Positions 3,610 through 5,160 of a stretch of 64,000 bases of DNA are shown one piece after another. The notes below the pieces were generated by a model. The model was not told where the DNA came from. It searched no databases and saw only the letters and a list, made by a program, of their open reading frames with translations. The DNA lies in assembly GCA_017640505.1 (NCBI GenBank), contig JAEPQO010000003.1, forward strand, positions 248,001 through 312,000, written 5' to 3'. A program made the translations under genes and the position numbers. Numbering within the stretch: the first letter of the stretch is position 1; each line of letters starts with the position of its first letter. The stretch comes from Rhodospirillales bacterium. Lineage in GTDB: Bacteria > Pseudomonadota > Alphaproteobacteria > Rhodospirillales > Casp-alpha2.

Positions 3610-3990
3610 GCCAGACGGTTGGATGACCGCTCGCAGCTGTCCGAAAGGTGCTGCGGGAGGAAAGTCCGGGCTCCACGGGGATACGGTGCCGGGTAACGCC
3701 CGGCGGGGGCGACCCTAGGGAAAGTGCCACAGAAAGCAAACCGCCCCGGATTAATCCGGGGTAAGGGTGAAAGGGTGCGGTAAGAGCGCACCGCTCGTTC
3801 GGTAACGCGCGAGGCATGGTAAACCCCACCGGGAGCAAAACCGAATAGGGACGATGGCGCTTCGGCGCAGGCGCATCCCCGCGCTATCGTCCGGGTAGGT
3901 TGCGCGAGGCGTCCGGCAACGGGCGTCCCAGATGAATGGTCATCCATCGCCTTCGGGCGGGGACAGAACCCGGCTTACAGACCGTCTGGC
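3610..3990 (+). ncRNA. rnpB: RNase P RNA (type A)
   Basis: This is the catalytic RNA of RNase P, which matures the 5' ends of tRNAs. The ends pair as helix P1: GCCAGACGG at 3610-3618 with CCGTCTGGC at 3982-3990. Conserved blocks are present: GAGGAAAGTCCGGGCTCC near 3656-3675, a GCCACAGAAA core near 3727, GGTAAGGGTGAAAGGGTGCG near 3763, and the 3' block with GGACAGAA and GGCTTACAG near 3961-3980. The length of about 380 bases is normal. The last 60 bases are repeated at 5101-5160, which marks an insertion directly behind the gene. Ends are set by the P1 pairing and may be off by a few bases. Confidence 0.96.
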
Positions 3991-4466
3991 TAATTTTTCC
4001 TATTCAGGAAAATTTCAGCGGGTGAGAGAGGTGCGGAATTCCGGCGGTCAACGACACTAATGTTTCCGCCGGAGATGGCGGATATCGTGCCGTCATCAGA
4101 CGTTGCGGCTTCGGCCGTCTGTTTAAACATGAGGCAGATAACCAAATAAAAGGCGAAGATGCCGATCACGCCGCAATACGGTTTCGATTTATCCCAGCCC
4201 ACGTCGAATGATCGCCGGGTCGTAAGGCGGGCAACAAGATACGTCGCACTCAGTTTGTAAACGATGTCACATACCAGAAGCCACTTGGGGCTCCGCGCGG
4301 CACCGGCAAAGAGATGGAGCACAGTGCCGACCATAAAGATGATGGCGATGTAGGCCACATACGGTTGCCTTGAGAGTCGGACGCCGGCTTTCTGGTGCCA
4401 GACGCCGAGCACCCAGGATGCACAACTTCTCAAAAGGCCTATGACTTGAAGTTCTGCTGCCGTCAT
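3990..4466 (-). CDS. Membrane protein with DUF805-like half, in rnpB mini-island
   Basis: This is a hypothetical 158-residue protein with about three or four hydrophobic segments. I chose ATG at 4466; an in-frame GTG at 4487 would add seven residues. Its second half (TRRSFDVGWDKSKPYCGVIG, then a hydrophobic helix ending LMFK) lines up with the same region of the neighbouring gene (RRCRDAGWTKGAAYACAVPY, then a helix ending LLFK). The two are therefore probably diverged paralogues of the DUF805 type. The C-terminal tail of about 40 residues is polar. The stop codon (3990-3992) includes the last base of rnpB, so the insertion junction defines the gene end. Function unknown. Confidence 0.55.
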   Translation of the reverse strand: MTAAELQVIGLLRSCASWVLGVWHQKAGVRLSRQPYVAYIAIIFMVGTVLHLFAGAARSPKWLLVCDIVYKLSATYLVARLTTRRSFDVGWDKSKPYCGVIGIFAFYLVICLMFKQTAEAATSDDGTISAISGGNISVVDRRNSAPLSPAEIFLNRKN

Positions 4467-4524
4467 TGCTTTGCGCTTGTCGTGCACTTCATAGCGCGTC
4501 TCAGTTTGTTCGGTCCTGAATTCT

Positions 4525-4917
4525 TCATGTCTCCGGATTTAGGTCCGGGCGCAGCGGCCCGGGCTCCGATCCCTTGAACAACAATACCAGCGAGATGAAA
4601 GTTCCAAGGTAGGGGACGGCGCAGGCATATGCGGCGCCCTTCGTCCAACCGGCATCCCGGCATCGGCGCACCAAAACCTGCGCGAAGGGATACGCCACCG
4701 CCATGGCGAACAATAGCGATGCGATATTGACCACGTACCCTGAATAGGCGCCGAAGACGAACCCGATCATGAATTGAATGATGAAGATGGCGGCGACCCA
4801 CTTGAAGAAATCCATGCGCGTTGCGCGCAGTCGGCTGTTCTCGGACCTGACGCCGTATATATGGAGGGCCAAGGCGGCAGCCGCGATGACAAGAATAAAG
4901 ATGAGTGCACCGTCCAT
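4525..4917 (-). CDS. DUF805-like small membrane protein, in rnpB mini-island
   Basis: This 130-residue protein has about four membrane helices and the pattern RRCRDAGWTKG, which matches the R-x-x-D-x-G-W signature seen in DUF805 inner-membrane proteins. ATG at 4917 has GGAG eight bases upstream; an upstream in-frame TTG at 4929 lacks one. It lies 58 bases before the second membrane-protein gene on the same strand, so the pair probably forms an operon transcribed toward rnpB. DUF805 proteins have no established function. Their presence as the only cargo of an insertion is discussed under findings. Confidence 0.6.
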   Translation of the reverse strand: MDGALIFILVIAAAALALHIYGVRSENSRLRATRMDFFKWVAAIFIIQFMIGFVFGAYSGYVVNIASLLFAMAVAYPFAQVLVRRCRDAGWTKGAAYACAVPYLGTFISLVLLFKGSEPGPLRPDLNPET

Positions 4918-5100
4918 ATTTTGCTCCAACCCATGTCTGAGGTCACGTTGTGTATGTTTGTGATGCGGTTATTGAAGGCACAGGGGGATATTTTTACCAA
5001 CACTACCTTAAGAAGTATATTTTTTTAGTTATATAGAAAAACAGGTAGAGCGACGGCGCAAGATTGCGAATGCTTGCCGGCCTGCATCCCGGGCGCCCCG

Positions 5101-5160
5101 GATGAATGGTCATCCATCGCCTTCGGGCGGGGACAGAATCCGGCTTACAGACCGTCTGGC
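5101..5160 (+). repeat. Displaced copy of the rnpB 3' end (att-like direct repeat)
   Basis: These 60 bases match 3931-3990 at 59 positions. They include the 3' strand of helix P1 (CCGTCTGGC), but the rest of rnpB is absent, so it cannot form RNase P RNA. The T-rich bases that follow (5161-5170) may be part of the original rnpB terminator. Confidence 0.85.

Follow-up and report, generated by a model that had tools for sequence, protein, structure and literature searches.

In the window analysed here, a 64,000-nucleotide stretch of the genome of a Rhodospirillales bacterium (G000), 1170 bp of DNA (3991–5160, a second rnpB 3′ end included) lie inserted directly behind the RNase P RNA gene, rnpB, as the initial annotation of this DNA had proposed and as an exact empty site in a sister species (G001) confirms. 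On balance, we regard the block as a small islet without an integrase, brought into the rnpB 3′ end by site-specific recombination of the tRNA-gene type, the integrase having been lost or having acted in trans. Insertions with other cargo in three further species suggest that DNA lacking an integrase also lands at rnpB, an essential RNA gene little noticed in this role. The features concerned are listed in Table 1.

Table 1. Features at rnpB in the window, repeats at tRNA genes of the same genome and rnpB repeats in other species.
Feature	Location	Strand	Description
rnpB, RNase P RNA class A, full length	3611..3993	+	Rfam RF00010, 331 bits, model positions 1–367 of 367
rnpB 3′ part, left junction	within 3611..3993	+	attL-like
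Left copy of the 60-nt rnpB 3′ end	3931..3990	+	Genus-wide sequence GTCCCAGATGAATGG...ACAGAACCCGGC
Inserted DNA	3991..5100	.	Unique to this species; GC 0.539; T-rich sequence CTAATTTTTCC at left junction
Gene A, DUF805-like membrane protein, 165 aa	3990..4487	-	ORF; Pfam DUF805 18.9 bits, below cut-off
Gene B, DUF805 membrane protein, 134 aa	4525..4929	-	Pfam DUF805 E 4.8e-11
Right copy of the rnpB 3′ end	5101..5160	+	attR-like; homology extends back to ~5089
Native downstream DNA of the empty site	5161..5927	.	GIY-YIG gene common to G001, then mraZ
tRNA-Pro(CGG)	57335-57411		3′ half, from anticodon loop, repeated at 54821-54869 (47/49)
tRNA-Lys	contig C6 203114-206347 (L148)		45/45 copy 3.1 kb downstream, around primase-like DUF3987 gene; no integrase found
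tRNA-Arg	contig C4 160800-172516 (L171)		45/45 copy 11.6 kb away, around island
tRNA-Val	contig C4 124690-126198		19-nt copy of 3′ end 1.4 kb away, around low-GC DNA (0.489)
rnpB repeat in G027			54–62 nt, about 88%; 643-aa methyltransferase/ATP-grasp protein
rnpB repeat in G230			134/134 nt; BrnT toxin and HTH protein; contig stops at repeat, right flank unseen
rnpB repeat in G1125 (another order)			42 nt, 95%; 290-aa glycosyltransferase-like gene

The last 60 bases of rnpB (3931–3990) recur at 5101–5160 with 59 of 60 positions identical, the figure already given in the initial annotation, C3969/T5139 being the sole difference; when the comparison is extended upstream the copies are identical at 68 of 72 positions, and BLAST returned a 72-nt segment (95.8%, E 1e-30). 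The right copy alone departs from the genus consensus, at 5096 (T to C), 5100 (A to G) and 5139 (C to T), and because the unchanged left copy retains the genus-wide sequence, rnpB stays intact. In the fold of RNase P RNA, the change at 5139 replaces a G-C pair of P4 by a wobble, though not one that is by itself disabling, since rnpB of other families shows the same C to T. Related DNA totalling 540 kb, taken together with the window, contained only six direct repeats of this kind, i.e. the four rnpB cases described here, the tRNA-Pro repeat of the window and a 211-nt repeat in locus L035.

The insert is of foreign composition, with a GC content below that of its own contig (0.617), and the two membrane-protein genes that had been read in it were recovered as DUF805-type genes, B scoring well above the Pfam cut-off (43.5 vs 25.7 bits) and A below it. 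The two proteins share 22% identity; both genes are antisense to rnpB, i.e. transcribed towards it, and the stop codon of gene A overlaps the last base of the left repeat. No integrase or recombinase was found within the insert, where open reading frames and Pfam gave DUF805-type genes alone, in agreement with the earlier reading, nor were the hallmarks of an insertion sequence or transposon present (no transposase, no terminal inverted repeats at the ends). Six tyrosine recombinases are encoded in this genome outside the insert, none of them with an rnpB fragment. The block carries the hallmarks of a CIME or integrase-less islet, namely att-like repeats at either end in the absence of mobility genes.

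The exact empty site is found in G001, a sister species of the same genus whose rnpB (97.4% identical) joins directly onto the DNA lying past the right copy here (77.7% identity over 786 aligned positions, the GIY-YIG gene included); that relatives might have rnpB running into the downstream DNA without the repeat had been suggested from the sequence of the window. The locus combines what is expected of an integrative element, i.e. a 3′-end repeat around the insert, an rnpB complete on the left and an empty site in close relatives. Among the 61 related genomes searched for rnpB, insert DNA was absent from every recovered locus but that of the window, and protein B had matches in just 17 of the 314 genomes of the order; the order-wide presence with normal divergence that would have meant an old tandem duplication is thus absent. 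With the ~22% flank difference from G001 as yardstick (roughly 11% per lineage), the 3–4 changes per 72 nt in the repeat place the insertion well after the split from G001. Of the two causes that had been offered for the near-identity of the copies, this comparison favours a recent event and speaks against selection on the sequence.

Two congeners, G004 and G007, each carry one antisense DUF805 gene in the gap between rnpB and mraZ, without a second rnpB end; gene A is 29% identical to that of G004 and gene B 31% identical to that of G007, as against ~80% for MraZ. No DUF805 gene was found in the rnpB gap of G001, G003, G002 and G006. In a poorly resolved tree, A weakly pairs with the G004 gene at rnpB (80/76 support) and B with a G004 gene from another locus. 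These congener genes could reflect old inheritance with fast change, repeated gain, or donors that keep DUF805 genes behind their own rnpB. One history built on them, in which old DUF805 genes were inherited behind rnpB in the genus and the repeat arose by later local tandem duplication and partial loss, would account for the genes in the same gap of G004 and G007 and for the weak pairing of A; we consider it very unlikely, as about four losses would be needed (G001, G003, G002 and G006, the first three being closer to G000 with rnpB identities of 97.4, 95.5 and 93.4% vs 88–89%), the duplicated unit would have to hold foreign genes missing from the sister species, and the exact G001 junction largely refutes it.

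The rnpB–mraZ spacer ranges from ~270 bp to 7 kb in many genomes of the order (L042, L047, L051–L060, L125, L127, L129), with genes that differ by species, and looks like a gene-gain hotspot even without repeats. Within the window, three related ~32-bp palindromic repeats (TTTCTGGGTCCCCGC...) at 5231–5314 and 5627–5659 flank the GIY-YIG gene (5286–5951); they form a REP-like family that is present too in G001 and G003.

The rnpB 3′ core was sought in about 1,300 proteobacterial genomes, drawn in overlapping sets from the order (317), the class (387), the phylum (398) and a second order (401), with a 27-nt pattern (up to three mismatches; a 21-nt pattern for the phylum sample). Other elements ending in an rnpB 3′ fragment, whose existence the initial annotation had raised, were found in the form of three further same-strand pairs of rnpB ends with cargo, in three species, which brings the total to four cases in two orders; an integrase lay beside none of the three. 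All four cargos are 0.8–2.2 kb long, antisense to rnpB and free of recombinases, and in all cases the repeat stops at the rnpB 3′ end and a complete rnpB lies left of the cargo. Congeners of G027 (350–425 bp gap at rnpB) and of G1125 (empty site in G1113 and G1100) likewise lack the insert. Neither the approximately 1,300 genomes nor IMG/VR, INPHARED and PLSDB yielded an element with both an integrase and a second rnpB 3′ end, and a regex screen of rnpB loci gave no adjoining tyrosine recombinase.

Several other matches were examined and rejected. The single viral match for the rnpB end beside an integrase (L076) is a complete chromosomal rnpB; the plasmid matches to the rnpB 3′ end were, where annotated, chromids or unannotated replicons; a second RF00010 match in G008 (C85) is a chance match inside an apparent alanine dehydrogenase gene; the double matches in G647 and G353 are contig ends; and the second match in G1304 is distant, with three mismatches. 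In G222 (L125), which belongs to the genus of the G230 case, rnpB is followed at 238–1113 nt by a large serine recombinase (PF07508 and zinc ribbon) in truncated form; it has no rnpB repeat and was set aside as a cause. In G864, of another class in the phylum sample, the rnpB 3′ core occurs twice, 190 bp apart (C1:636627–636837), possibly as short tandem repeats like those behind E. coli rnpB. G100 has two different rnpB genes or 3′ parts with differing hairpins on two contigs (L066 and L070), reflecting either contamination or a true second gene.

The recurrence can also be read as a system of cassettes moved in trans, i.e. cargo-only units for which the rnpB 3′ end would be the site of an unlinked recombinase, with a logic like that of pdif modules or integron cassettes. 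In keeping with such a system, two orders have yielded four compact units that consist of cargo alone, antisense in every case and with genes that differ from one to the next, and in G000 and G230 a stop codon lies 0–13 nt from the rnpB end; the idea is nevertheless hard to credit, given that the genomes scanned held no rnpB fragment away from rnpB, that no shared terminal sequence was found when looked for among the islets of this genome and that no candidate recombinase is known. That the rnpB 3′ end is a recurrent site for tiny interchangeable integrase-less cassettes (carrying toxin-antitoxin, methyltransferase, membrane or glycosyltransferase genes), moved in trans by an unlinked recombinase, we rate as improbable; were trans-moved cassettes real, such units would be too small for current island catalogues and would also be missed by their integrase requirement.

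Site-specific recombination is favoured by the matching layout at tRNA genes of the same genome, of which 846 kb were scanned for tRNA 3′-end repeats. The tRNA-Pro islet (54821–57411 of the window, 2.5 kb) comprises two genes antisense to the tRNA and no integrase; their products, a DUF5131 and a TcmP-like protein, correspond to the pair that makes up the PADLOC candidate defence system PDC-M30. Between the two tRNA-Pro copies, one base pair of the T stem has changed in a compensatory way (A-T/T-A), so that one copy derives from a different tRNA-Pro variant, which is what attP exchange would predict. The tRNA-Arg island, with a 410-aa tyrosine integrase, a DNA cytosine methyltransferase-like gene, Vsr and an 831-aa protein, is probably a restriction or defence island and is alone among the tRNA islets of this genome in having an integrase; the tRNA-Val locus is possibly a decayed islet. 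Islets without an integrase at the ends of RNA genes are thus nothing exceptional in this genome; the rnpB islet belongs among them, its target being the unusual part.

Three observations hold this reading down, namely the lack of an integrase-bearing rnpB element in the collections searched, an inner edge of the repeat that varies from 42 to 134 nt (about 42, 54–62, 72 and 134 nt), when one integrase should give a fixed edge, and a second copy that, in G000, G230 and G027, reproduces the host's form of a hairpin that varies between species. In G230 the repeat is identical at 134 of 134 positions whereas the nearest relatives are about 89% identical. A scan of genome contigs for the host-specific hairpin gave two distant Rhodospirillales with the same hairpin, by convergence, and these were discarded. 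Judged from the hairpin sequences, the second copy points to a self-derived duplication or a same-species donor; together with the variable inner edge it fits one-sided capture in G000, G027 and G230, although a same-species attP would look alike.

One-sided homologous capture is the main rival explanation and, in our estimate, a real if less probable one. A donor rnpB 3′ end with its gene would recombine at one end and join upstream in the host rnpB, duplicating the host 3′ end, either by homology-facilitated illegitimate recombination or by a single crossover with a partly homologous circle. Such capture accounts for the three facts that count against the site-specific reading, as it needs no recombinase (none is present in any of the four rnpB cases), leaves a variable 5′ edge and makes the second copy the host's own variant. 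DUF805 genes that are native to the gap in two congeners without a repeat, and accessory genes often held by the rnpB–mraZ gap in the order (up to 7 kb), also agree with it, and there is an E. coli precedent in which conjugated DNA with partial homology gave mostly partial duplications (109–950 bp) by single crossover (PMC3240628). It leaves unexplained, however, the dominance of RNA-gene 3′ ends among the repeats and the fact that the tRNA islets of this genome have repeats bounded by the anticodon loop, and no donor has been identified, the congener DUF805 proteins being only 29–31% identical when MraZ is at about 80%.

Under the site-specific reading that we prefer, the rnpB 3′ end would have served as attachment site in the way that tyrosine-integrase elements use tRNA genes. 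The incoming DNA would have brought a copy of the last ~72 bases of rnpB together with a T-rich tail, and recombination within the shared stretch would have restored a complete rnpB on the left, leaving the original 3′ end on the right-hand side of the cargo. With the integrase lost, or acting from elsewhere, what remained would be a cargo-only islet of two membrane-protein genes pointing at rnpB. Integration, as the initial annotation had it, is supported by the empty site and the recurrence; the action of a site-specific recombinase, and the former mobility of the element, are what we infer, and the distantly related DUF805 genes that G004 and G007 carry without a repeat are a further qualification.

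Being essential, single-copy and present in nearly all bacteria, rnpB would offer incoming DNA a well-protected target, much as tRNA and tmRNA genes do. The open-access literature on rnpB or RNase P RNA in combination with attB, integrase, prophage or genomic island gave no case of rnpB as an attachment site, an absence that argues only weakly for novelty. The occurrence of rnpB islets in four species suggests that counts of small cargo-only islets at the ends of RNA genes are too low, since catalogues demand an integrase and a minimum size, and rnpB islets offer a test of how gene blocks without mobility genes enter chromosomes.

Among known systems, the islet resembles the tRNA- and tmRNA-gene islands of tyrosine integrases (Islander/TIGER) in its RNA-gene 3′-end repeat on both sides, the gene rebuilt on one side, the empty site in relatives and the low-GC cargo, but differs in its target, in its size of only 1.17 kb and in having no integrase. 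The TIGER/Islander catalogue leaves out units below 2 kb and requires an integrase, so that the rnpB islet would not be in it (PMC12424338). Like CIMEs (cis-mobilisable elements, att-flanked remnants of ICEs), the block consists of two att-like repeats and cargo, with no recombination or conjugation genes; unlike them, it could be linked to no parental ICE, and no relative with an integrase turned up at rnpB in about 1,300 genomes or in viral, phage and plasmid collections. In E. coli, the 3′ end of rnpB is repeated in tandem behind the gene, as it is repeated downstream here, but those repeats are short and enclose no foreign genes, whereas foreign genes lie between the copies in G000. Finally, single-crossover partial duplications and homology-facilitated illegitimate recombination (PMC3240628) likewise place a host-gene fragment of variable length beside foreign DNA with no recombinase; the rnpB islets are unlike these in that four events fall at one RNA gene end and that the host genome also has integrase-type islets at its tRNA genes.
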